Positions 6,888 through 17,320 of a DNA stretch of 55,144 nt are shown here, one piece after another (the first letter of the stretch is position 1; each line of letters begins with the position of its first letter). The stretch comes from Sandarakinorhabdus cyanobacteriorum (GTDB taxonomy: Bacteria > Pseudomonadota > Alphaproteobacteria > Sphingomonadales > Sphingomonadaceae), in NCBI RefSeq assembly GCF_002251755.1, contig NZ_NOXT01000122.1:449-55592 (forward strand), given 5' to 3'. The translations under genes were made by a program, and so were the position numbers. The notes under the pieces were generated by a model. It was not told where the DNA came from. It ran no database searches and saw only the letters and a program-made list of their open reading frames with translations.

Positions 6888-7460
6888 TCAATCGGCCAGC
6901 GCCAGGCAGCCGGCCGCCATCCGCTTGAGGCCGCGGTGGATGTTGATCTTGATCAGCGATTGCGACTGCCCGGTGGCAGCTGATGCCTCCATGATCGACA
7001 GGCCGTCGATCTTCACCAGCCGGATGGCTTCGGCCTGGGCCGGGCGCAACTGGCCCAGCAGGCCAGACACGGCATGGCAGGACAGCACGTCGATCTCGTG
7101 GCTGGCGACATGGCTGTCACAGGGCACCGGGGTCTTTTCGCGCTCCATCAGGCGCAGCCGGTCCACCCACTTGAAGCGGGCGATGGCCGCCAGCCACGGC
7201 CGCAGCGGCTGGCTGCAATCGAAATCATGGCGGCGATGGTGCAGGGCGATCAGGGTTTCCTGCACGGCATCCTCGACATGGGCGGCCGGCAGCCGGCGCT
7301 GGAAATAGCGGCCTAGCCACACCGCGGTTTCGCCCAGCAGCGCATCATAGGCGCGGGCATCGCCGGCGCGCCCCCGCGCCATCAGCGCGGCCCAGTGCGC
7401 CGTCTTGTCGGTGGTCCCGGCTGATGCACGCCGCCGGGCCGGCTTTACCTTGCTGGTCAT
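6888..7460 (-). CDS. sigF: ECF sigma factor of the SigF (ECF16-like) type
   Basis: A 190-residue extracytoplasmic-function sigma factor. Region 2 is 'HVEDAVQETLIALHHRRHDF' followed by 'PLRPWLAAIARFKWVDRLR'. Region 4 is 'LRPAQAEAIRLVKIDGLSIM' followed by 'EASAATGQSQSLIKINIHRG'. The pairing resembles Caulobacter-type SigF, which is known to drive bufferin operons. I chose ATG 7460 because GGAGGG lies six bases upstream; the frame extends to a GTG at 7478 that would swallow this Shine-Dalgarno. Three GTAAC-N16-CGAA-like promoters nearby fit its expected targets, but none precedes this gene. No NrsF/DUF1109 anti-sigma partner is visible in the window. Confidence 0.85.
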   Translation of the reverse strand: MTSKVKPARRRASAGTTDKTAHWAALMARGRAGDARAYDALLGETAVWLGRYFQRRLPAAHVEDAVQETLIALHHRRHDFDCSQPLRPWLAAIARFKWVDRLRLMEREKTPVPCDSHVASHEIDVLSCHAVSGLLGQLRPAQAEAIRLVKIDGLSIMEASAATGQSQSLIKINIHRGLKRMAAGCLALAD

Positions 7461-7606
7461 GGACTGCCCTCCATTCACGCGGCCTAATGTCGTCGCGGGA
7501 TGGGGCCTCGCACAGGCATCGCGGGTGCATTGGTTTGATACCGGCCGGCTATGGCCAACGCCGGCCCCTTGTGGTGCAGCGCAGCAATGATAGGATGGGC
7601 AACGTC

Positions 7607-8485
7607 ATGGAAATGCACCAGATCCGCTATTTCCTCGCGGCGGCCCGGCTGCTCAATTTCACGCGCGCCGCAGAGGCCTGCAACGTGGCCCAGCCATCGC
7701 TGACCCGAGCCATCCAGAAGCTGGAGGAGGAGCTGGGTGGCGCGCTGTTCCGGCGCGAACGGGCGCGCACCCACCTGACCGAACTGGGCCGGCTGATGCT
7801 GCCCCATCTGGAACGCACCTATCGCGCTGCCGAGGATGCCAAGGCGCTGGCCAAGGGCTTTGGCAAGGGCCAGGTGGCGCCCCTGGTGCTGGGCGTGTGT
7901 TCGCTGGTGGAATCAGCAACGCTGGATGCGGTGCTGGCCGAACTGGCCGATGCGATGCCGGGGCTGCAGCTGAATGTGGTGGGCGGCACCAGTGCCGATC
8001 TGCTGGCGCAGGCGCTGGCCGGCCAGCTGGACCTGATGATCATCGAGGCGCCGGCCGACGCGCCGGAACGGTTCGAAGCGTGGCGGCTGTTCAGCCACGA
8101 TTATCGCATGGTGGTGCGCCGCGATCATCCCGCCGCCAACCAGCCGGCGGTGAGCCTGGCCGATCTGGCGCGCGAGCCGCTGGTGGACCATGGCTGCGAA
8201 GGCATGGCTGCGCTGCGCCGGCAGGCCGAGGTGGTGGGCATCACCCTGAACCTGCGCCATGCGGCCCGCGATGTCGGCCAGCTCAAGCGCCTGATCGCCG
8301 CCGGGCTGGGCACCGGCTTCATGCCCGATCCGCGCGATCTGGCCATGTGTGCGGTGCCGGTGGCCGGCACGGCGATCAGCGCCGATGTCGTGCTGGCCGG
8401 GATCCAGGGGCGGCGGCGCAGCCTGGCGGCGGAAAGCTTCCTGCGCGCCAGCCGCGCCCGCAACTGGGCCAATGGTTCAGCCTGA
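7607..8485 (+). CDS. LysR family transcriptional regulator
   Basis: A 292-residue LysR regulator. The N-terminal winged HTH reads MEMHQIRYFLAAARLLNFTR and continues 'AAEACNVAQPSLTRAIQKLE'. A periplasmic-binding-protein-like effector domain follows from about residue 92. The 'MEMHQIRYF...LNFTRAAE' N-terminus resembles OxyR-like/HexR-like LysR members of proteobacteria. The effector domain has single Cys residues (in 'LGVCSLVE', 'DHGCEGM' and 'LAMCAVP'), so redox sensing is possible but unproven. It is divergent from the sigma factor and converges on the first peroxiredoxin-like gene, overlapping its stop by nine bases. The ATG at 7607 has only a weak upstream AGGA; ATG 7595 is an alternative. 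Confidence 0.88.
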   Translation: MEMHQIRYFLAAARLLNFTRAAEACNVAQPSLTRAIQKLEEELGGALFRRERARTHLTELGRLMLPHLERTYRAAEDAKALAKGFGKGQVAPLVLGVCSLVESATLDAVLAELADAMPGLQLNVVGGTSADLLAQALAGQLDLMIIEAPADAPERFEAWRLFSHDYRMVVRRDHPAANQPAVSLADLAREPLVDHGCEGMAALRRQAEVVGITLNLRHAARDVGQLKRLIAAGLGTGFMPDPRDLAMCAVPVAGTAISADVVLAGIQGRRRSLAAESFLRASRARNWANGSA

Positions 8486-9106
8486 TCGCAAGGCTGCCAG
8501 CACGGCAGCCGGTTCGGCGCGGCGGCGGAAATCGGGATCGACAAAGGCAAAGCGCACGATGCCATCCGCATCGATCAGGAATGTGGCCGGAATCGGCAGC
8601 AGCCGGCCGCTGCCGCCCAACAACAGCGCCAGATCATCGCCGCCATCGCGATAGGCTGCGGTCATCTCGGCCGGCAGGCTGATCACCAGGCCCAACGCCA
8701 GGCACAGGCCCAGATCGACATCCACCAGCGCCAATGCGCCGGCCCGTTCGGCCAGGGCCGCCGCACTGCCATCCACTTCGGCCGAAATCGTCACCAGCCG
8801 GCCGCCGGCAGCGGCCAGCGCGGTGCCGGCATCACCCCAGCCGGCGCTTTCCACCCGGCACCAGGGGCACCACAGGCCGCGATGGATGCTGATCACCAGC
8901 GCATCGCCGCCGGCCAGCAACTGGGCCAGCGTGTGGAAACGCCCCTGCGCATCGGGCAGGGCAAAACCGGGGAAGCGCTGGCCCACGCGGGGCGCCCGGC
9001 GGCCGGCACCCCGCGCGGCCAGTTGGGCCACCAACGCATCATAGGCCTGGGCATAGGCGGCCAGTCGGCGGGTTTCGGCGTCCAGCGCCGGGGCGATGGG
9101 TGTCAT
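8477..9106 (-). CDS. Peroxiredoxin-like protein (AhpC/TSA, PRX_like2 type), copy 1
   Basis: A 209-residue thioredoxin-fold protein. The AhpC/TSA core shows 'PRVGQRFPGFALPDAQGRFH', the redox motif 'RGLWCPWCRVE' (W-C-x-x-C) at about residue 80, and the conserved C-terminal 'ATFLIDADGIVRFAFVDPDF'. In related families this motif reduces peroxides or other oxidants. No signal peptide is visible, so it should be cytoplasmic. The start at 9106 (MTPIAPALD) is preferred because an upstream extension would run through the divergent promoter at 9152-9179. A clear paralogue lies at 16691-17320, so the pair brackets the bufferin operons. Confidence 0.85.
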   Translation of the reverse strand: MTPIAPALDAETRRLAAYAQAYDALVAQLAARGAGRRAPRVGQRFPGFALPDAQGRFHTLAQLLAGGDALVISIHRGLWCPWCRVESAGWGDAGTALAAAGGRLVTISAEVDGSAAALAERAGALALVDVDLGLCLALGLVISLPAEMTAAYRDGGDDLALLLGGSGRLLPIPATFLIDADGIVRFAFVDPDFRRRAEPAAVLAALRSG

Positions 9107-9151
9107 GCCGTGGTGATAATCCGGGCAAGGCGGGCAGCGCCAGAGGCCACT

Positions 9152-9179
9152 GTAACGCGCCGCCGCTGCCATGCGAACA
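9152..9179 (+). promoter_or_regulatory. SigF-type ECF promoter of the NDH-2 operon
   Basis: The -35 GTAACG (9152-9157), exactly 16 bases, then the -10 CGAACA (9174-9179). It matches the promoter of the bufA1 operon (GTAACC-N16-CGAATG) in element sequence and spacing; both have CACT immediately before the GTAAC. The GTAACC-N16-CGAA form is the signature known for Caulobacter SigF. Transcription should begin about 9185-9187, on or next to the ATG. Confidence 0.75.
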
Positions 9180-9186
9180 GCCGTGC

Positions 9187-10467
9187 ATGGCAAACAGCGG
9201 CGCAACGGATCAGGATCCGGTGGTGATCATCGGGGCCGGCTTTGCCGGGCTGGCCGCCGCGCGCGTGCTGGGCGCGGCCGGTGTCGCCACGGTGGTGATT
9301 GATCGGCAGAACCACCATCTGTTCCAGCCGCTGCTGTATCAGGTGGCCACGGCCGGGCTTTCGGCTGCCGATATCGCCGCGCCCATCCGGGCCATCCTGC
9401 GCCAATGGCCCAGCGTGAGCGTGCTGATGGACACGGTGGTGGGCATCGACCGGGCAGCGCGCCAGCTGCAGCTGGCCAGCGGCGGCAGCCTGCGCTTTGG
9501 CGCGCTGATCATCGCCAGCGGCGCGCGCCATGCCTATTTCCGCAATCCCGAATGGGCAGCACATGCGCCGGGCATCAAGACCATCGACGATGCCATCCGG
9601 GTGCGCCGCGATCTGTTGCTGGCGCTGGAGCGCGCCGAAACCATGCGCGCCGAACAGCGCGAAACCCGGGCCGAGCACTTGACCTTCGTGGTGGTGGGCG
9701 GCGGGCCCACCGGGGTGGAACTGGCCGGTGCCATTGCCGAACTCGCCCGCCATGCCGCCGAACGGGATTTCCCGCACATCACCCGCAATTGCGTGCGCGT
9801 CGTGCTGGTGGACAGTGGTGACCGGCTGCTGAAGGCGCTGCCGCCCAGCCTGTCGGCCGCGGCGGCGCAGGCGCTGGCCGGGCTGGGGGTGGAGGTGCGG
9901 CTGAACAGCCGCGTCACCGCGCTGGAACCCGGCCGGATCATGCTGGGCGACGACAGCCTGCCCGCCTGCGTGACGCTGTGGGCAGCCGGGGTGGCGGCCT
10001 CGCCAGCGGCCAGCTGGCTGGGCGCAGCGGCCGATGGCAGCGGCCGGGTGATCGTGGGCAGCGATCTGGCGCTGCCCGATGATCCGGCGATCTTCGTGGT
10101 GGGCGACACGGCCGCCGCCACCAGCCGCGATGGCCAGCCCGTGCCCGGTGTGGCCACCGCCGCCAAGCAGATGGGCGCCCATGCCGCAAGGGCCATCCTG
10201 GCCCGCCGCGCCGGGCAGGCGGTGCCGGCCTTCCGCTATCGCCATCCCGGCAGCATGGCCACCATCGGCCGTTCGCATGCGGTTGCCGATCTGGGCTGGC
10301 TGAAGCTGGCGGGCGCGCCGGCCTGGCTGTTGTGGTGCACGGTGCATCTGTGGTTCCTCGCCGGGTTTCGCAACCGGCTGGTGGTGGGGGCGAACTGGCT
10401 GTGGCGCTATCTCACGTTTGAGTCCTCGGCCCGGCTGATCACCCAGCAGGAAAGCGACATGCGATGA
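9187..10467 (+). CDS. Type II NADH dehydrogenase-like FAD oxidoreductase (NDH-2)
   Basis: A 426-residue flavoprotein likely to transfer electrons from NAD(P)H to quinone without proton pumping. It has two dinucleotide folds: 'VVIIGAGFAGLAAARVLG' near the N-terminus (FAD) and 'FVVVGGGPTGVELAGAIAEL' mid-protein (NADH). It also has the NDH-2 motif 'HHLFQPLLYQVATAGLS', the 'FVVGDTA' FAD strand and a C-terminal amphipathic or membrane-associated segment ('WLLWCTVHLWFLAGFRNRL'). The ATG at 9187 is chosen because the SigF-type promoter ends at 9179; longer versions starting at 9100 would overlap it. It overlaps the YeeE-like gene by ATGA. It may keep the quinone pool reduced under copper or oxidant stress (inference). 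Confidence 0.87.
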   Translation: MANSGATDQDPVVIIGAGFAGLAAARVLGAAGVATVVIDRQNHHLFQPLLYQVATAGLSAADIAAPIRAILRQWPSVSVLMDTVVGIDRAARQLQLASGGSLRFGALIIASGARHAYFRNPEWAAHAPGIKTIDDAIRVRRDLLLALERAETMRAEQRETRAEHLTFVVVGGGPTGVELAGAIAELARHAAERDFPHITRNCVRVVLVDSGDRLLKALPPSLSAAAAQALAGLGVEVRLNSRVTALEPGRIMLGDDSLPACVTLWAAGVAASPAASWLGAAADGSGRVIVGSDLALPDDPAIFVVGDTAAATSRDGQPVPGVATAAKQMGAHAARAILARRAGQAVPAFRYRHPGSMATIGRSHAVADLGWLKLAGAPAWLLWCTVHLWFLAGFRNRLVVGANWLWRYLTFESSARLITQQESDMR

Positions 10468-11408
10468 TGCTGATGCTGGCATGCCTGCTGGCGGCGGCGG
10501 TGGTGGGCTTTGCCGCCCACCAGGGCGGCACCTGCGGGGTGGTGGCGGTGCGCCGCTGGCGGGTGGCGCGCGATGCCCGGCTGTTGATGGGCTTTGCCGT
10601 GGCGGGCGGGGCGGCCACCCTGGTCTGCCTGCCGGTGGCCTGGGCGCTGGGCCGCGGCGGCCAGCTGCCGGGCAATGCGCCGCTGGCCCTGCCGTTGCTG
10701 CTGGGCGCGGTGCTGCTGGGCACGGGCGCGCTGGTCAATGGCGCCTGCATGGTGGGATCGCTGTGGCGCATGGGCAATGGCGAGCTGCATCTGATCGGCC
10801 TGCCGCTGGGCATTGTGGCCGGCGATGCGCTGGGCCGCCTGCTGGGCTGGCGGGTGGAATTGCCACCCAGCCGCTTTGCCCAACCCGATGGCGCCGGTCT
10901 GATGCTGGTGCTGGCCGGGGCGGTGGTGCTGATGCTGGCCGGGCGCTGGCTGGCGCGGCAGGGGGCGGATGCGCGCCGGCTGGCGGTGACGATGGCGGCG
11001 ATGGGGGCGGCCGGCAGCCTGTTGTTCGTCGCGCTGCCGGGCTGGAGCTGGGCCGATGTGGTCAACGCCCGCGCGCGGGCCTGGGCCGGCGGCACAGCCG
11101 TGGCCGATACGGCCGGGCTGCGCGCCGCGCTCGCCACCCTGGCAGGCGCGCTGGCATCCGGCTGGATGACCGGGCAACTGCATCTGAAGTGGCGGGGCTG
11201 GCCGGCGCTTGGCCGCAGCCTGGCCGGCGGGGTGCTGATGATGCTGGGCATCGGCCTGATCCCCGGCGGCAATGATGCGCTGCTGCTGGGATCGGCGCCG
11301 GCCGGTGCGGCCACTGCCCTGCTGGCCTTTGCCCTGATGAACCTGACGATCCTGCTGCTGGGCGCGCTGCCGGCGATCAACCGCGCGGCACCAGCAGGCC
11401 GGCACTGA
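10464..11408 (+). CDS. YeeE/YedE-like membrane transporter (thiosulfate/sulfur-compound family)
   Basis: A polytopic membrane protein of 314 residues with about nine predicted helices. The central segment '[20 protein letters not shown]' then '[20 protein letters not shown]' matches the cysteine-centred Sulf_transp (YeeE/YedE) motif, in which conserved Cys residues relay thiosulfate. A second Cys lies in '[14 protein letters not shown]' near the N-terminus. In characterised relatives (TsuA) the family imports thiosulfate. It is coupled to the NDH-2 gene by ATGA and should share its SigF-type promoter. Its last 32 bases overlap the tail of bufC2 on the other strand. The role here could be supply of reduced sulfur during metal or oxidant stress; this is inference. 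Confidence 0.75.
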
Positions 11409-12093
11409 GCCAGATCTGCAGCCAGCCGCCGATCTGGCGCGCGCTGGCACCACTGGCATCGCAGGCCGCGCCAAAGGCCTGGCCGGCCGCCACCGCCGAC
11501 AGCAAGCCGCCCTCGCCCTCATCCAGCCGGCGAAAGCGCGGGTCAGGCCCGTCGCGCCACACCAGCACCCAGCCCGGGGCCGGCGCCGGGGCGATGGGGT
11601 GATCCGGAATGGCCGCCCAGATCGCATCGGCATTGGTGGCGAACGCCAGCAGGCACGCCCCCGGCACCAGCCGCAGCCGCAGCCCTTCCCAATCAAGCCC
11701 GCCAGCCTCGGCCCACAGCGCCGGGGCGGGATCGGCCGCGCCAAAGGCGGTGCGCAGCGCCCAATCCAGCGCGGCCAGTTCCGGCACCTCGCGATCATCG
11801 GGCAGGTGGCGGTGCAGGAAGGCCGGGAAATCCTCGCCATAATCGGCGAGGGTCCAGCTGCTGGATGGGCTGATGGCGGCATAATCGAGGGCCAGCATGG
11901 TGAAGGCATCGCCGCCCAGCCAGTGCAACGTCTTGGCGAAATTGTCGGCCAGCCCTTCCACCAGCATGGCGCGGGCGGCATGGGTGTGGACGGCCAGGCC
12001 CGCCGGTCGCACCACCGCATCGGCCAGGCCTGCCAGATTGCCGGCCATCAGGCCGGCCTGGAACTGGCGTTGCAACGCGGCAAGGCCGGTCAT
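11377..12093 (-). CDS. bufC2: BufC-type DUF2063 partner protein of bufferin operon 2
   Basis: A 238-residue protein with an N-terminal DUF2063 helical domain ('[20 protein letters not shown]' and '[20 protein letters not shown]', then a C-terminal domain of mixed strands). Proteins of this type (RRE-like/partner function) work with DUF692 MNIO enzymes to recognise and present the precursor peptide. It overlaps bufB2 by ATGA, so the two are translationally coupled. It shares the DUF2063 plan with BufC1 at 14662-15372 but differs strongly in sequence, suggesting old duplication or separate acquisition. Its 3' end overlaps the convergent YeeE-like gene by 32 bases. Confidence 0.85.
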
Positions 12094-12923
12094 GGTCGTG
12101 CCGCCTCGGCCTCGCCCAGCCGGGCGCGGTCAAGCTCGGCCAGCAGATCGGCCAGCGGCGGGATGTCATCATCCCGCTCGATCATCACCGCCACCGGCCC
12201 GGTGCGGCGCCGCACCTCTTCATACAGGGCCCACACCCGGCCCGGCACCGGCGTGTCGTGCGTGTCGATCAACAGGCCATCCTGGCCCTGGCTGGGGCCG
12301 GCCAGATGCAGCTGGCGCACCGCGTGCCACGGCAGGCCATCCAGCCAGTCCAGCGGATCGCGGCCATGGTTGTGCGCCGAAACATGGATATTGTTCACAT
12401 CCAGCAGCAGGCCGCAGCCGGTGCGCTGCACCAGGGCGGTCAGAAATTCCCATTCGGCCAGGGTGCTGCTGTGAAATTCCAGATAGGTGGACGGATTTTC
12501 CACCAGGATCGGCCGGCCCAGCGCCGCCTGGGCCTGATCGATGTTGCGCGCCACGACGGCCAGCGCTTCCTCGCTGTAGGGGATGGGCAGCAGATCATGG
12601 CTGTTGACCCCGTCGATGCCGGTCCAGGCCAGATGGTCCGACACCCAGAGCGGCTGGACCGTGTCAGCCAACTGGCGCAGCCGGGCCAGATAGGCGGTGT
12701 CCAGCCCGGTGGCGGTGCCAAGGCTCATCGACACGCCGTGCAGGATCACGTCATGATGCTGGCGCACCCCTGCCAGCACGGCGGCTGGGCGGCCGCCATC
12801 CACCATGAAATTTTCCGAAATCACCTCCACGAAATCCACCGGCACATCACCGGCCAGAAAATCCGCATGGTGGGGGCGCCTGAGGCCAAGGCCATACAGG
12901 CTGCGCTGTGGGGGCGGGATCAT
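12090..12923 (-). CDS. bufB2: BufB-type MNIO (DUF692) bufferin-modifying enzyme, operon 2
   Basis: A 277-residue multinuclear non-heme iron oxidase of the DUF692 TIM-barrel family. Likely metal ligands and family motifs are in place: 'FVEVISENF', H62 in 'LHGVSMSLG', D96-H97 in 'VSDHLAW', E142-N143 in 'LVENPST', D175 and H180 in '[16 protein letters not shown]', H206 in 'QLHLAG', D220/H222 in 'IDTHD', and E249. MNIOs of this kind convert cysteines of the BufA precursor to heterocycles (thiooxazoles in copper bufferins). The ATG at 12923 has GGAG five bases upstream; a GTG lies one codon before. A 7-bp GC hairpin separates it from bufA2. It is coupled to bufC2 by ATGA. Confidence 0.93.
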
Positions 12924-12948
12924 CACCGCTCCGTTTCCAGGCCGCTTG

Positions 12949-12972
12949 GGGCCGGCCGGGGGGAACCGGCCC
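12949..12972 (-). other. GC-rich hairpin between bufA2 and bufB2
   Basis: Arms GGGCCGG (12949-12955) and CCGGCCC (12966-12972) pair perfectly around a 10-base loop in the 60-base gap between precursor and enzyme genes. There is no T-tract, so it is not a standard terminator. It could protect the bufA2 message from 3' decay or lower read-through, giving more precursor than enzyme. Confidence 0.4.
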
Positions 12973-12983
12973 TGGCGCGGGGC

Positions 12984-13241
12984 TTACTTTTCGGTCAGAC
13001 GGCCACCGGCAGCCTTGCAGGCCTTCACGGTCAGCGCCTTGAAGCCCTGGCCCTTGCAGGCATTCTGGCCCTTGCAGGCGCTGCTGGCGGTCGCACAGTC
13101 AGAGGTGCCTTTGCAGCTGTTGATGCCATAACAGTGGACCACCTTGTCGTCGGCAGCCTTGGTCTGGGCCTGAACGGCGATCCCGCCGGTGACCGCGATG
13201 GCGGCGGCGGCAGTGGCAAGCGAGATACGGGTAGCGAGCAT
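12984..13241 (-). CDS. bufA2: BufA2-type bufferin precursor peptide
   Basis: An 85-residue exported peptide. A signal sequence (MLATRISLATAAAAIAVTGG, cleavage probably after VQAQ or nearby) precedes a core with six cysteines at about 37, 43, 49, 56, 62 and 75. These sit in 'HCYGINSCKGTSDC' and the repeated 'ACKGQ' units ('SACKGQNACKGQGF'). This repeat is characteristic of BufA2-family periplasmic metallophores, whose cysteines are modified by the MNIO encoded next door. I chose ATG 13241 because GGAG lies six bases upstream; in-frame ATGs at 13247 and 13253 are alternatives. It is preceded by a GTAACC-N16-CGGATT promoter and starts a bufA2-bufB2-bufC2 operon. Confidence 0.88.
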   Translation of the reverse strand: MLATRISLATAAAAIAVTGGIAVQAQTKAADDKVVHCYGINSCKGTSDCATASSACKGQNACKGQGFKALTVKACKAAGGRLTEK

Positions 13242-13317
13242 GTTCATCTCCATGGCTGGGCGGCCCGAACGCGCCGGGCCCCCTGGGGTGCCGCCTCCCC
13301 TTGGTGGCGACACTGGC

Positions 13318-13345
13318 AATCCGGGCCGGCCACACCAAAGGTTAC
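13318..13345 (-). promoter_or_regulatory. SigF-type ECF promoter of the bufA2 operon
   Basis: On the minus strand: -35 GTAACC (13345-13340), 16 bases, -10 CGGATT (13323-13318). The -35 and spacing are identical to the bufA1 promoter; the -10 differs by one base (CGGA for CGAA), which might weaken it. It is preceded by GGCT, so GGCTGTAACC mirrors CACTGTAACC of the opposing promoter. The predicted leader to the bufA2 ATG is about 70 nt. Confidence 0.72.
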
Positions 13346-13364
13346 AGCCACCGGCACTGTAACC
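13340..13364. repeat. Inverted repeat formed by back-to-back -35 elements
   Basis: GGTTACAG (13340-13347) and CTGTAACC (13357-13364) form a perfect 8-bp inverted repeat around nine bases. Each arm includes the -35 of one of the two divergent promoters. The symmetry goes one base pair beyond the needed GTAACC plus T on each side, so it may also be a dimeric regulator site or a consequence of promoter sharing. Confidence 0.6.
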
Positions 13365-13386
13365 CATGATGCCGCCGCTGCGAATG
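13359..13386 (+). promoter_or_regulatory. SigF-type ECF promoter of the bufA1 operon
   Basis: The -35 GTAACC (13359-13364), 16 bases, -10 CGAATG (13381-13386). This equals the GTAACC-N16-CGAA form known for Caulobacter SigF. The start of transcription should be near 13393, giving a leader of roughly 125 nt that contains a perfect 14-bp hairpin before the bufA1 ribosome site. Confidence 0.78.
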
Positions 13387-13435
13387 ACCATCCAGATGCC
13401 GGCGTCCCTTTTGGTCCGCCTCCCCCGCTGGCATC

Positions 13436-13479
13436 GGCGCGGCTGCCCCCTCTCACCCCGAACCCGGGGCAGCCGCGCC
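13436..13479 (+). other. Strong hairpin in the bufA1 mRNA leader
   Basis: GGCGCGGCTGCCCC (13436-13449) and GGGGCAGCCGCGCC (13466-13479) are perfectly complementary over 14 bp, with a 16-base C-rich loop. There is no following U-run, so it is unlikely to be a plain terminator. It ends about 28 bases before the AGGAGG ribosome site. It may stabilise the message or regulate it. Confidence 0.65.
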
Positions 13480-13519
13480 CCGTATGGAATGCACAAGGGC
13501 AGGCGGCAGGAGGCAGACC

Positions 13520-13780
13520 ATGACAGCCAAGACGATGTTGGGCGCCGCCGTGCTGGCCGCGCTGGCCGCCAGCGCCGCCACTGCGGCCGAAAAGCCCAAG
13601 ATGGAAAAATGCTTTGGCGTGGCCAAGGCCGGGCAGAATGATTGCGCCGCCGGAGCGGGCACCAGCTGTGCCGGCACGTCGAAGGTGGATTATCAGAAGA
13701 ACGCCTGGAAACTGGTGCCGGCCGGCACCTGCACCAAGATCAAGACCCCCAAGGGCAGCGGCTCGCTGACCCCGGCCTGA
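13520..13780 (+). CDS. bufA1: BufA1-type bufferin precursor peptide (DUF2282)
   Basis: An 86-residue exported precursor of the DUF2282/BufA1 family. The signal peptide is [20 protein letters not shown] (then TAA before the cut). The mature part has four cysteines at about 31, 42, 50 and 71, within '[20 protein letters not shown]' and '[10 protein letters not shown]'. The C-terminus '[20 protein letters not shown]' is the family hallmark. Known members are modified on cysteine by MNIO enzymes and bind copper in the periplasm. A perfect AGGAGG lies six bases before the ATG at 13520, implying heavy translation as expected for a metal buffer. It leads the operon bufA1-bufB1-bufC1-bufD-MBL under a SigF-type promoter. 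Confidence 0.93.
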
Positions 13781-13790
13781 TCCCTTCGGC

Positions 13791-14672
13791 ATGCACGGCA
13801 GCTTGCGCGCCGGGTTGCGCCCGGGACGGCCGTTGGGCGCGGGCATCGGCCTGCGCATGGCCCATCTGGCCGAACTGGCATCGGGCAGCGTCACGCTGCC
13901 CGATGGCCTGTGGCTGGAGGTGCATGCCGAAAACTTCATGGTGGCCGGCGGCCCGCGGCGTGCGGCCTTGCTGGCCCTTGCCGAACGCCACCCCATCTCG
14001 CTGCACGGCGTGGGGCTGGCGCTGGCCGGCACCCGCATGGCCCCGGCCCGCCATCTGAAGGCCCTGCGCCAGCTGTGCGATGCCGTGCAGCCGGCGCTGC
14101 TGTCTGACCATCTGGCCTGGCAGCTTGTGGGGCAGCCGGTGGGAAGCTGGCATGTGCCGGATTTCCTGCCCTTTCCGCGCACGGCCAAGGCGCTGGCGTT
14201 GATCATCGGCAACGTCAACCGGGCCCAGGATGCGTTGGGGCGGCGGCTGCTGATCGAGAACCCGTCGCATTATGGCGATGTGGGCGGCCATGCCATGGCC
14301 GAGCATGAATTTCTGGCCGAACTGGCGCTGGCCACCGGCTGTGGCCTGCTGGTTGATTGCAACAATATCCATGTTTCGGCCCACAATCTGGGGCTGGATT
14401 CGGGCTGGCTGGTGGATCAGCTGCCGGCCGAGGCGGTGGGCGAAATCCATGTTGCCGGGCATCGCCCCGACGCCATGGGCCAATTGCTGATCGACAGCCA
14501 TGATGCGCCGGTGGCAGCGCCGGTGTGGGCGCTGGCCGCCCGCCTGCTGGCCCGCACCGGCCCGCGACCCATGCTGGTCGAACGCGATGCCGAACTGCCG
14601 CCGCTGGCCGATCTCTTGGCCGAAGCTGCCCAGGCCAGCGCCCTGATTGCTTGTGTGCATCATGGCGGTTGA
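13791..14672 (+). CDS. bufB1: BufB-type MNIO (DUF692) bufferin-modifying enzyme, operon 1
   Basis: A 293-residue DUF692 multinuclear iron oxidase. Family residues are present: 'WLEVHAENFMVAGG', H72 ('LHGVGLALAG'), D106-H107 ('LSDHLAW'), E156-N157 ('IENPSH'), D189 and H194 ('[13 protein letters not shown]'), H220 ('IHVAGH'), D235/H237 ('IDSHDAP') and E264 ('VERDAE'). It should install cysteine-derived heterocycles on BufA1. Only ten bases separate it from bufA1 and no clear ribosome site precedes its ATG, so coupling to bufA1 translation is likely. The last 11 bases overlap the bufC1 start. It is clearly diverged from BufB2, so each enzyme is probably dedicated to its own precursor. Confidence 0.93.
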   Translation: MHGSLRAGLRPGRPLGAGIGLRMAHLAELASGSVTLPDGLWLEVHAENFMVAGGPRRAALLALAERHPISLHGVGLALAGTRMAPARHLKALRQLCDAVQPALLSDHLAWQLVGQPVGSWHVPDFLPFPRTAKALALIIGNVNRAQDALGRRLLIENPSHYGDVGGHAMAEHEFLAELALATGCGLLVDCNNIHVSAHNLGLDSGWLVDQLPAEAVGEIHVAGHRPDAMGQLLIDSHDAPVAAPVWALAARLLARTGPRPMLVERDAELPPLADLLAEAAQASALIACVHHGG

Positions 14673-15372
14673 AGGCCTGTCATCCCCGGCCCGGTTCGAA
14701 GCCTGGTTCGCCCGGCTGCTGGCGGGCGATGCCGTGCCACTGGCCCCGGGCCTGGCGCGGGCGGTGGCCGTGCATGCCAACAATGCCATGGCGGCCGCCA
14801 CCGCCGCGCTGGCCAGCAATTTTCCGGTGCTGCTGGCCCTGATGGGCGAAGCGGCCTTTGCCGATCTGGCCCAGCGCCATGCCCGCCGCTGCCCCCCGGC
14901 CGATCCGCGCCTGTGCCTGTATGGCCGGGGGCTCGATGAAACGCTGGTCCAGGCGCTGCCGGCTGGCGACTGGCCCTGGCTGCCCGACATGGCGCGGCTG
15001 GAACAGGCGGTGGTGGGGGCGCTGTTTGCCGCCGATCCGCCGCGCCGGCCGCGCCGGCTTGATCCGGCACGCTGCTGGCCGCTGGCACCGGCGACCAGGT
15101 GGGTATGGTCTGCCGCGCCGATTGCCAGCCTGTGGCAGGCGCACCAGCCGGGCGCGGCCTGGCCCGATGAATTTCCAGCCGCTGGCGAGCTGGCGCTGAT
15201 CAGCCGCCGCGATGGCCAGTGCCTGATCACCGCCCTGCCGGCCGCGGCACTGCCGCTGCTGGAGGCCTTGAAACGCCGCACGCCGCTGGCGCAGCTGCCC
15301 GCCGATGGGCTGCCGCATCTGCCGGCCATCGCTGCGGCCGGTGCCCTTGTTCCTGCTGTTGGAGACGGATGA
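14662..15372 (+). CDS. bufC1: BufC-type DUF2063 partner protein of bufferin operon 1
   Basis: A 236-residue protein starting [20 protein letters not shown]. The N-terminal DUF2063 domain (about residues 8-95) includes '[20 protein letters not shown]', and the C-terminal domain of about 130 residues resembles the second half of BufC2 ('[20 protein letters not shown]'). Partner proteins of this family bind the leader of the precursor for the MNIO. The ATG at 14662 is inside the end of bufB1 (11-base overlap); an upstream TTG start is less likely. The stop overlaps the DoxX start by one base, so the operon is tightly coupled. Confidence 0.88.
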
Positions 15373-15812
15373 TGAAGCCCTATGCCGCTGTTGCTGCCCT
15401 GTTGTCGCGCCTGCCGGAATCGCTGTGGCTGCTGCTATGCCGGCTGGGCATTGGCGCCATCTTCTTCCTGTCGGGGCGCACCAAGGTGGATGGCCTTATC
15501 ACCCTGAAGGACAGCACCTACACCCTGTTCGAATATGAATATGCCCTGCCGCTGGTGCCGCCCGATATTGCCGCCCATGCCGCCACCTATGCCGAACATG
15601 CCTTTCCCATCCTGCTGGCGCTGGGCCTGTTCACCCGGGCCAGCGCGCTCGGCCTGCTGGGCATGACAGCCACCATCCAGATCTTTGTCTATCCCGATGC
15701 CTGGCCCACGCATCTCAGCTGGGCGGCGATCCTGTTGCCGATCATCGCGCGTGGGCCCGGCGCCCTGTCGCTGGATCATCTGCTGGGGCTGGATCGCCGG
15801 GCCGCGCCATGA
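15372..15812 (+). CDS. bufD: DoxX family membrane protein (BufD-like)
   Basis: A 146-residue inner-membrane protein with four predicted helices. It matches DoxX proteins: '[20 protein letters not shown]' in helix 1, '[20 protein letters not shown]' in the middle, and '[20 protein letters not shown]' near the end. DoxX proteins are regular fourth members of bufferin operons; redox coupling to the quinone pool or a copper-linked role has been suggested, not settled. Start 15372 is chosen because GGAGACGG lies suitably upstream and the ATG overlaps the bufC1 stop (TGATG). Its stop overlaps the next gene by ATGA. Confidence 0.88.
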
Positions 15813-16705
15813 TGCTGGCGGTGCTGATGGCCGGCGCGCTGGCCTGCCCGGCCAGCGGCCTGGCGGTGGCGGTGCTGGGTTCGGGCGGGCCCATTGCCGA
15901 AGGCCGCGCCGGGCCTGCCTATCTCGTCCACATTGCCGGCCGGCCGCGCCTGTTGATCGATGCCGGGCCGGGCGCGCTGCTGCGGCTGGGTGAAGCCGGC
16001 GTGGCGCCCGAACGCTTGGACGCGATTGCGCTGTCGCATCTGCATGTCGATCATGCCGGCGATCTGCCGGCCATCCTGAAATCGGCCAATTTTGCCGATC
16101 CGCCGGCAAGGCTGGCCCTGTTCGGGCCGGATGGCCGCGGGCTGTTCCCCGGCACCCGTCAGCATGTGATGGCCCTGTTGGGCGAACAATCGGGTGCCTA
16201 TCGCTATCTGGCTGATTGGCTGGCTGGGCCACAGCCCCGGCTGGCCATCACCGACGTGCCCAGCGGCGATCCCGACCGGCCGCACGAAACCCTGCTGGTC
16301 GACTGGCCGGATTATCGCCTGTCGGCCATTGCCGTGCACCATGGCGTGGTGCCAGCGCTGGCCTTTGTGGTGCGCAGCGGCGGCGCCACCGCCGTTCTGG
16401 CCGGCGATCAGAGCGAATTTTCCGCCGGCTTCGATGCCGCGCTGGCCGCCAGCCGGCCCGGCCTGTTGATCATGCACCACGCCATCCCGGAAGGCCCCGG
16501 CCAGCCGCGTGGCCTGCACCGCCCACCGGCCCGGATCGGCGCCGCGGCGGCCGTACTCCAGGCTGGCCAGCTGGTGCTGTCCCACAACATGAAACGCGCG
16601 CTCGACCGGCAGGATGAAGGCCTTGCCGCGCTGCGCCAATCCTATGCCGGCCCGGTCAGCATTGCTGTCGATGGCGCCTGCTATGCCGCCTCACCACCGC
16701 AATGA
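15809..16705 (+). CDS. Exported metallo-beta-lactamase-fold hydrolase in the bufferin operon
   Basis: A 298-residue protein. It opens with a hydrophobic signal-like segment ([20 protein letters not shown], leaving 'VLGSGGP' at the fold start). The MBL signature '[12 protein letters not shown]' (H-x-H-x-D-H) follows, with later ligands probably in 'AGDQSEF' and 'LSHNMKRAL'. The layout 'VLGSGGP...YLVH...[17 protein letters not shown]' is that of RNase Z/ArsA-like MBL proteins exported to the periplasm. It overlaps bufD by ATGA and is therefore the fifth cistron of the bufferin operon. The substrate is unknown; one idea is processing or deglutathionylation-like chemistry on exported thiols. Its end overlaps the second peroxiredoxin-like gene by 15 bases. 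Confidence 0.85.
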
Positions 16706-17320
16706 GGCCAGCACATCGGCCGGATCGGCCCGGCGACGAAAGTCGATGTCGACATGGGCAAAGCGCACCCTGAGACCAACTTCGATCACATAGGTGGCCG
16801 GGATCGGCAGGATGCCACTGGCCGCGCCATAATGGGCCGCCAGATCCAGGCCAGCATCGCGATAGGCCGCAAGCAGCTCATCGCCCATGAAGAAGGCCAG
16901 GCCCAACGCCGTGCTGGCGCCGAAATCGACATCGCACAGCACATGGGCATCCGGGCCAACCCGTTCGGCCATGGCCTGGGCCCTTCCGCCGGTTTCGGGC
17001 GTCACCAGCACCAGCCGGCAGCCGGTATCGCGCAACTGGGGCCGCGCGGCCTGCCAGCTTTCCACCTCGGCCCGGCACCACGGGCACCACAGGCCGCGAT
17101 GGAAGCTCAACACGATCGGCCCATCGTGGCACAGGCCAGCCAGGGTGGTGAGCCGGCCATCGGCAGCCGGCAGGGCCAGATTGGGAAAGCGCTGGCCGGC
17201 CGCCGGGGCCAGCCGGCCGGTCCCCAGCCGCGCCAGCCGTGCCACCAGGCGATCGGCCCGCGCGTGCCAGACCGGATCGACCACCGGGCCGCGCAGCGGC
17301 TGGGGTTGGGCAACCATCAT
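16691..17320 (-). CDS. Peroxiredoxin-like protein (AhpC/TSA, PRX_like2 type), copy 2
   Basis: A 209-residue paralogue of the protein at 8477-9106. It shares 'GQRFPNLALPAADGRLTTLA', the redox motif 'SFHRGLWCPWCRAE' (W-C-x-x-C), 'LLAAYRDAGLDLAAHYGAAS', 'LPIPATYVI' and the ending '[20 protein letters not shown]'. It is cytoplasmic by lack of a signal peptide. ATGs at 17320 and 17317 are equally possible. It is convergent with the bufferin operon and lies at the far side of the island from copy 1. No SigF-type promoter is seen upstream. It likely detoxifies organic peroxides or reduces an oxidised thiol; no substrate is inferable. Confidence 0.85.
   Translation of the reverse strand: MMVAQPQPLRGPVVDPVWHARADRLVARLARLGTGRLAPAAGQRFPNLALPAADGRLTTLAGLCHDGPIVLSFHRGLWCPWCRAEVESWQAARPQLRDTGCRLVLVTPETGGRAQAMAERVGPDAHVLCDVDFGASTALGLAFFMGDELLAAYRDAGLDLAAHYGAASGILPIPATYVIEVGLRVRFAHVDIDFRRRADPADVLASLRW

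Follow-up and report, generated by a model that had tools for sequence, protein, structure and literature searches.

A two-class bufferin locus with a head-to-head pair of putative sigma-F-type promoters in Sandarakinorhabdus cyanobacteriorum

Gene content of the locus and its distribution in relatives

We investigated a 55,144-nucleotide stretch of the Sandarakinorhabdus cyanobacteriorum genome (GCF_002251755.1, contig NZ_NOXT01000122.1; hereafter the window), in which two operons for bufferins lie back to back. Bufferins are exported, copper-binding peptides whose cysteines are modified by an MNIO enzyme and its partner protein (PMC12452194). The divergent arrangement described in an initial annotation of the window was confirmed, with bufA2-bufB2-bufC2 on the minus strand, bufA1-bufB1-bufC1-doxX-MBL on the plus strand, and every gene at its annotated position (Table 1). 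The start codons of bufA2 (13241) and bufA1 (13520) are 279 bp apart, as had been stated, and further in-frame ATGs are present at 13247 and 13253.

Profile searches placed the two small open reading frames in the classes first proposed for them: one matched the BufA2 model NF050166, and contained six cysteines, two ACKGQ repeats and a hydrophobic N-terminus, while the other matched the DUF2282 model PF10048 and contained four cysteines. BufA1 matched no NCBIfam model, and no PDB sequence at E-values up to 1. Each operon encodes, as annotated, its own MNIO and its own DUF2063 partner, the latter both above the PF09836 cut-off. The motifs EN, HG, SDHLAW, ENPS, D-NN-H, DSHD/DTHD and ERD, which we take to be metal ligands, are readable in both MNIOs. 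BufB1 scored 301.6 bits against the BufB model NF050167, just below its cut-off of 310 and far above the PF05114 cut-off; BufC1 and BufC2 fell below the HvfC model (NF050145, 17 of 142 bits), and BufD below the HvfX model (NF050144, 45.2 of 80 bits). At E-values up to 0.001, profile searches of the source genome found no MNIO (PF05114) or DUF2282 gene apart from the two and the one, respectively, of this locus.

We examined the distribution of these genes in 396 genomes of the order, among which 190 had an MNIO, 79 a BufA2 match above the cut-off and 180 a DUF2282 match (G labels denote genomes of relatives, L labels their loci, and G000 the source genome). The surroundings of bufA2 were examined in 79 genomes, that is 78 relatives and the source, with some loci ending at contig ends. 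On the question of how often the two classes are divergent, bufA1 was found divergent from bufA2 in 59 of these 79 genomes, directly in 42; in the other 17, sigF-nrsF precede bufA2 on the bufA2 strand. Among the 59 loci, bufA1 and doxX have an MNIO and partner between them only in the source and, by inference, in G244, where one contig stops after bufA1 and another opens with bufB1-C1-doxX-MBL (G244, G589 and G611 belong to the same genus as the source). In the other 57, neither an MNIO nor a partner adjoins bufA1; doxX comes next, in many of them as part of doxX-sigF-nrsF. Of these genomes, 50 contain a single MNIO, and seven contain two. The two-MNIO form of the source locus is a minority arrangement. 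The four cysteines were present in all 83 BufA1 sequences counted, 82 of which fit a fixed motif, the lone misfit having arginine in place of lysine before the first cysteine. The BufA1 of G313, outside the 83, has four cysteines too; its bufA2 side is interrupted by a contig end.

We additionally scanned named genomes with four aligned BufB1 proteins. Within the best 80 of 560 loci, bufA2 was divergent from bufA1-B1 in 13, and both MNIOs were nearby in eight of these: Sandarakinorhabdus rubra, S. oryzae, the metagenome-assembled genomes (MAGs) L252 and L254, Caulobacter sp. S45, Asticcacaulis sp. AC466, a Caulobacteraceae MAG and a Sphingomonas MAG, the last with 1.2 kb between. The other five are Sphingobium or Sphingomonas loci (L255, L258, L263, L270 and L273) without B2C2 beside bufA2. 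Strict reciprocal orphaning, in which bufA2 is divergent from bufA1B1C1 with no B2C2 adjacent, was considered for these five loci and G499, and rejected as evidence because one or more additional high-scoring MNIOs lie elsewhere in each of the six genomes (357-368 bits, in the BufB2-type range as judged by score rather than by tree).

Table 1. Coordinates in the window of the bufferin genes, putative promoters and predicted leader structures.
Feature	Coordinates	Strand	Remarks
bufC2, DUF2063 partner protein	11377..12093	-	PF09836 55.9 bits
bufB2, MNIO (DUF692)	12090..12926	-	PF05114 348.6 bits; NF050167 361.5 bits (cut-off 310); in tree with Buf2-type MNIOs
bufA2, six-cysteine precursor, Sec-type N-terminus by eye	12984..13241	-	NF050166 104 bits (cut-off 60)
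Putative sigma-F-type promoter of bufA2	13320..13345	-	GTAACC-N16-CGGA; one base off consensus
Gap between the two -35 elements	13346..13358		13 bp; no A/T tract
Putative sigma-F-type promoter of bufA1	13359..13384	+	GTAACC-N16-CGAA; exact consensus
Predicted leader stem P1	13395..13435	+	13395-13404 with 13426-13435; loop holds CCGCCTCCCC; consensus fold of six relatives, not in own minimum-energy fold
Predicted long-range leader pairing	13412..13520	+	13412-13423 with 13509-13520; covers Shine-Dalgarno GGAGG; in minimum-energy fold
Predicted leader stem P2	13436..13479	+	13436-13449 with 13466-13479; 14 bp, perfect; compensatory changes
bufA1, DUF2282 four-cysteine precursor	13520..13780	+	PF10048 95 bits (cut-off 22.4)
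bufB1, MNIO (DUF692)	13791..14672	+	PF05114 284 bits; in tree with Buf1-type MNIOs, support 0.88
bufC1, DUF2063 partner protein	14647..15372	+	PF09836 49.1 bits; start uncertain, 14647 or 14671
bufD, DoxX family membrane protein	15369..15812	+	PF07681 64.7 bits, above Pfam cut-off
MBL-fold hydrolase, signal-peptide-like N-terminus by eye	15809..16705	+	PF00753 45.3 bits

The MBL-fold protein shows weak likeness to several MBL-fold hydrolases. Its gene, with a signal-like N-terminus, follows doxX in the source and in some relatives (L178, which is G244; L252; and L254/L245, which is G569), has no counterpart at that place in L243, and lies between nrsF and sigF in G065 and G202; a weaker relative adjoins MNIO genes in G327 and G212. 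The loci concerned include L120, L132, L180 and L181. A tRNA-Gln call by ARAGORN inside the MBL gene (16360-16451) has none in Rfam and is probably false. At the other end of the locus, a pair of genes for an NDH-2-like oxidoreductase and YeeE/YedE-type sulphur transport (9187-11408) converges on bufC2, with a 32-base overlap between the YeeE/YedE-type gene and the 3' end of bufC2; both genes are found again in L114, L252 and L254, and YeeE in L243-L245. An extracytoplasmic function (ECF) sigma gene (6888-7478) adjoins a LysR regulator, and two peroxiredoxin-like genes flank the bufferin region (coordinates listed for the ECF, LysR and peroxiredoxin-like genes: 6888-7478, 7424-8485, 8477-9205 and 16691-17320).

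The shared control region and the bufA1 leader

Both bufferin operons of Caulobacter require sigma-F; their promoters have been mapped by 5' rapid amplification of cDNA ends, and GTAACC-N16-CGAA is the published consensus (PMC3511200). We identified two head-to-head sites resembling this promoter between bufA2 and bufA1, with 13 bp between their -35 elements. The proposal that the two operons share one control region is supported, and we describe this region as two sigma-F-type promoters placed head to head. With the -10 element relaxed to CGRA, a choice made after inspection of the sequence, the pattern is expected by chance at a mean of 0.07 per window, and two matches occurred in none of 100 window shuffles. 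A scan for sigma-70-type sites found none in the shared region. Seven matches were found in the whole source genome, two of them in the shared region; against them stand 17 matches of the reversed pattern, so that there is no genome-wide enrichment, and the weight of the evidence lies solely in the position of the two sites within the shared region and in their conservation.

In the 59 divergent loci, both best sites had at most one mismatch and stood head to head in 53. Sites with no mismatch (CGRA 16-17 bases downstream) occurred on both sides in 29 of the 59 loci (21 of the 42 direct loci and 8 of the 17 containing sigF) and on one side or both in 55; the reversed pattern, as a control, gave no match in 18,204 intergenic bases. 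Of the 17 loci with sigF-nrsF before bufA2 (e.g. L080, L087 and L110), 14 have an additional sigma-F site immediately ahead of bufA2. A CCGCCTCCCC element with a TGGC-like half after it was also noted on both sides of the promoter pair (13291-13300 and 13416-13425), in sense orientation in the leader of bufA1 and in antisense orientation in that of bufA2, and again in L114 and L243.

The source genome contains a sigF-nrsF pair on another contig (C95), consisting of an ECF sigma gene (PF04542, PF08281 and PF07638) and an adjacent NrsF gene (PF06532, 134 bits, cut-off 26.8). A second ECF sigma gene is the one at 6888-7478 in the window; the sigma genes that it grouped with in the sigma tree (support 0.944) come from G065, G202, G155 and G499, and some of these adjoin bufferin genes. 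The C95 sigF was weakly placed (0.42), among a large set beside bufferin genes. Either sigma gene could act at the promoter pair, a point against the switch proposed below. The initial annotation had further held that the two products are made together. Co-production is plausible because both sites fit the same sigma factor; at 13 bp, however, the two -35 elements probably cannot hold polymerase simultaneously, and alternation would be just as likely as co-firing.

We compared the gap, measured between the 5' ends of the -35 elements, across relatives. It is 13 bp in the source and G244, and 22-25, 32-35, 43-46, 55 or 57 bp in other loci. A search of the family with the pattern (397 genomes, 60 matched) yielded 15 more divergent bufferin loci, 14 of which were counted. 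In all, 65 of 72 loci passed, with gaps of 13-14, 22-25, 32-35, 43-46, 55 or 57 bp, a rhythm of approximately 10.5 bp; 58 of the 65 lie within 2 bp of 13.3+10.5k, and the remaining seven, all of 32 bp, deviate by at most 2.3 bp. G470, which has no BufA1 match above threshold, was counted among the 72 through its doxX and left out of the statistics on 64 loci, while G506 (gap 24 bp) and G313 (MNIO on another contig) stand outside the 72. In G506 (L237) the MNIO and sigF frames are each split in two, by assembly error or decay. The best pair of G161 is not head to head, and the pattern search finds a 34-bp pair there.

Over the 64 loci, the resultant length (R) at 10.5 bp was 0.83, this being the best period between 7 and 15, and other distances in the same loci (promoter to gene, and intergenic length) gave R of 0.03, 0.26 and 0.04. 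Grouped into 17 blocks on the BufB2 tree, the gaps gave R of 0.88 at 10.5 bp (best 0.89 at 10.8), equalled in none of 100,000 uniform draws and none of 5,000 draws with a free period; block means of other distances gave R of 0.18-0.33. All 14 of the later counted loci lay within 2.3 bp of phase. We examined 14 named loci (from the best 80 of 560) for the gap: four, of the same or a like genus group, have 13-14 bp, three of them being G611, G589 and G569 again, and five Sphingobium/Sphingomonas loci have 34-35 bp, within 0.7 bp of phase. Of the other five, the Caulobacteraceae MAG has a gap of 75 bp, Asticcacaulis sp. AC466 weak sites at 96 bp with one and two mismatches, L262 a gap of 991 bp, L282 no promoter pair, and Caulobacter sp. 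S45 a gap of 51 bp. In loci with gaps of at least 22 bp, an A/T run of at least six occurs within the gap in 50 of 59, and elsewhere in the intergenic region in 13 of 59. For contrast only, five sigma-F-like pairs outside the bufferin pair (L238, L239, L240, L247 and L249) have gaps of 17, 17, 10, 19 and 31 bp, which are 3.3-4.8 bp off phase, though few; the 31-bp pair adjoins sigF-nrsF-like genes, and the 10- and 19-bp pairs share contigs with bufferin genes. The pattern-search pairs of G315 and G585 (17 bp) and G105 (7 bp) are outside the locus sample.

Several points weigh against helical phasing. Caulobacter sp. S45, although it has the full double operon, is out of phase, so phasing is not universal, and loci without bufA2, counted separately (12 of the 17 such genomes), are only weakly phased (R 0.45). 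The A/T tract is missing in all five short-gap loci, the source among them. The period and offset were fitted post hoc, and a tolerance of 2.3 bp to either side spans slightly less than half of a 10.5-bp turn. Many of the loci are related; the tree used for the blocks has several weak nodes, the block limits were set manually, and six of the loci included have two or three mismatches in one of their sites. Lastly, 13 of the 14 later loci came from a pattern restricted to gaps of 5-35 bp and perfect half-sites.

It is nonetheless quite unlikely, in our judgement, that shared ancestry and chance produced the rhythm. Most loci do come from a few genera, the 24-bp class comprising 31 loci in one block, and S45 and the loci without bufA2 fit badly, yet shifts of approximately one turn are found in several separate clades of the tree, the block test was never equalled, other lengths in the same loci are without such rhythm, and the few non-bufferin pairs are off phase. 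Helical phasing is typical of cooperative binding, and the inverted repeat GGTTACA...TGTAACC might alternatively be the operator of a dimeric or looping regulator, which the phasing would then reflect in place of paired polymerases; in many loci the repeat does run one to two bases past the -35 hexamer. We consider this improbable: the full motif, with CGRA at promoter distance, accompanies the repeat without mismatch on at least one side in nearly all divergent loci, and the hexamer is identical to the sigma-F consensus of Caulobacter (PMC3511200). Similarly improbable is that ordinary bufferin clusters have come to lie side by side by chance, with no coupling. The two operons of C. vibrioides, both sigma-F responsive, are at separate loci (PMC3511200), as that explanation would have it, but the divergent pair occurs in 59 of 79 BufA2 genomes, mostly with a phased gap. 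If functional, the phasing would be a sign, read from sequence only, of physical coupling between divergent promoters.

The bufA1 leader of the source has a predicted fold with a z-score of -3.95, in which the Shine-Dalgarno sequence is paired. Across 83 folded bufA1 leaders the mean z-score was -1.24, with values below -2 in just 24, so that strong leader structure is not general, a point against the mechanism proposed below. The consensus fold of six Sandarakinorhabdus-type leaders contained two stems, with 6 of 26 pairs changed on both sides. In 12 long leaders of other genera, picked by eye from 19 for a visible common layout, we identified a first stem with GCCTCC or a similar stretch in its loop and, as the second stem, a long GC one; 10 of the 12 also have a downstream complement of at least five bases, in a pseudoknot layout. 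A plain alignment of the 12 leaders misplaced the second stem, and an alignment of the 19 gave almost no consensus fold; stems were therefore counted by motif (leaving out G000, G161, G212, G244, G569, G589 and G611) and by covariance model.

The covariance model, R1, was built from seven of these 12 leaders and searched over 93 sources (920,640 bases). It recovered 17 bufA1 leaders at E-values up to 0.034, followed by four weaker matches, two of which were the opposite strand of the same hairpins. In the 17 leaders (16 distinct), 12 of 18 pairs were changed on both sides and 97.5% of cells were paired, beyond 500 of 500 shuffles, in an alignment fitted to the model, which leans toward the model structure, with seven of the 17 having built it. 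The source leader did not match R1 at E-values up to 0.5, and shares only the P1-P2 layout and the GCCTCC/GGAGGC pairing with the leader RNA of the relatives. Rfam searches at gathering thresholds found three tRNAs in the whole window and one tRNA in six relatives, and a search by E-value of 13250-13560 found two weak minus-strand matches, in each case with no match to the leader. We consider the bufA1 leader a candidate cis-regulatory RNA, one that no Rfam family matched in the stretches examined.

Substrate range of the MNIO pairs

The initial annotation saw in the two operons a natural test of specificity between MNIO and precursor. Strict specificity is weakened by the relatives, since 50 of the 57 with an orphan bufA1 have only one MNIO and BufA1 retains its four cysteines; the residue following the ERD motif fits it in part. 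In one genus (g3), we identified 17 genomes without a BufA2 match at E-values up to 0.001. In the 12 of these that were examined (L188-L199), bufA1-doxX-sigF-nrsF is divergent from an MNIO and partner, and the MNIOs fall inside the BufB2 clade (support at enclosing nodes 0.42 to 0.98, mostly above 0.8); bufA2 is retained in other members of the genus. No cysteine-rich signal-peptide frame of at least 40 codons was found by eye before the MNIO in the six of these loci inspected. Each of the 12 genomes contains one MNIO and two DUF2282 genes, so the substrate of the MNIO could be either DUF2282 protein. The simplest reading of these loci would be that bufA2 was lost and BufB2C2 kept for BufA1, and one MNIO pair may serve both precursor classes.

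The residue after ERD is aspartate in the BufB2 of the source and alanine in its BufB1. An aspartate beside the proposed catalytic aspartate has been linked to MNIO substrates of the Cys-Lys type (PMC13097082), the mapping of those positions onto ERD-D being our own. All 20 enzymes accompanied by bufA2 but not by a divergent bufA1 have aspartate after ERD, as do 50 of the 56 accompanied by both genes and 7 of the 12 lacking bufA2. Among BufB1 proteins, alanine occupies the position in the source, G589, G611 and G569, and aspartate in G244, of the same genus, and in G499.

An alternative is that each MNIO pair is strictly specific, and that the orphan BufA1 of the relatives is an unmodified protein with another job. 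The difference after ERD between the two enzymes of the source agrees with this, as does the family-specific substrate selectivity reported in PMC13097082, where FonBC did not process a NACKG-type substrate; this speaks for some specificity and for caution on cross-processing. We regard strict specificity as rather doubtful all the same, given that all 83 BufA1 sequences counted keep four cysteines, that aspartate also occurs after ERD in the BufB1 of G244 and G499, and that the 12 genomes keep a BufB2-clade pair without a BufA2 match, which needs another substrate, DUF2282 being the class present. The relatives make it probable that BufB2C2 can also process BufA1, and the source locus has a dedicated B1C1 pair between bufA1 and doxX. 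Some natural loci have two pairs, others a single pair and two precursors, and others again a single pair without the usual precursor; with these, it can be tested directly whether one MNIO pair acts on several precursor classes.

Proposed mechanism and comparison with known systems

Gene anatomy, the motif matches and their conservation, near-helical spacing in the Sphingomonadaceae, and predicted structured bufA1 leaders in the genus and in part of its relatives are what the analysis shows. On balance we favour, with some confidence, the reading of a two-class bufferin locus under one sigma-F-type stress switch. A sigma-F-type ECF sigma factor would turn on two back-to-back promoters, transcribing bufA2B2C2 one way and bufA1B1C1-doxX-MBL the other. 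Phasing would keep two sigma-F RNA polymerases on a fixed face of the DNA, and so couple the promoters; alternatively, the phase could be held by the alpha C-terminal domains of polymerase on the A/T tract of most longer-gap relatives. The 13-bp gap of the genus, one turn below the commonest class, would favour competition or alternation. The bufA1 leader may hold back BufA1 translation until unfolded, because the Shine-Dalgarno sequence can pair inside the structure. Ahead of Sec export, the MNIO and partner pairs would convert precursor cysteines to thiooxazoles, and the exported products would bind copper in the periplasm. A more far-reaching combination, in which a new, whole-turn-locked type of divergent ECF promoter sets the ratio of the copper peptides, together with a pseudoknotted leader gate and a single MNIO pair maturing both precursors, is put forward tentatively, as possible but less probable than the switch itself.

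Searches of the literature, covering titles and the starts of abstracts, with the founding bufferin paper outside this scope, identified no divergent Buf1/Buf2 pair, phased sigma-F promoters or bufA1 leader RNA. The bufferin landscape of Antoine et al. 2025 (PMC12452194) likewise describes Buf1 and Buf2 precursors, MNIO and DoxX, and a PME-type 1 partner (DUF2063 plus RRE domain), of which BufC1 and BufC2 match the DUF2063 part; precursors without their own MNIO are noted there, and whether one MNIO serves several is left as an open question. Its text, figures and supplements aside, uses "divergent" a single time, in a reference, and contains neither "promoter" nor "sphingo". That study places sigma and NrsF genes in Buf1 and not Buf2 clusters, whereas 17 of our 59 loci have sigF-nrsF directly upstream of bufA2 on the same strand. 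With respect to the captophorins and other 5-thiooxazole MNIO products (PMC13097082), BufB2 has the aspartate given for Cys-Lys MNIOs and BufB1 does not, and sections 13-14 and further passages of that paper describe no locus with two classes side by side.

Caulobacter vibrioides, with buf1 (CC3254-CC3257) and buf2 (CC2907-CC2905), has the same sigma-F consensus, two operons and sigF-nrsF in the genome (PMC3511200). Its operons lie apart, however, whereas here they are divergent, with the -35 elements head to head. Closest in gene order are Caulobacter sp. S45 (L257), Asticcacaulis sp. AC466 (L272) and the Caulobacteraceae MAG (L295), in which bufA2B2C2 is divergent from bufA1B1C1-doxX as in the source, and which differ from it in the promoter gap, at 51 bp, 96 bp (weak sites) and 75 bp, respectively.

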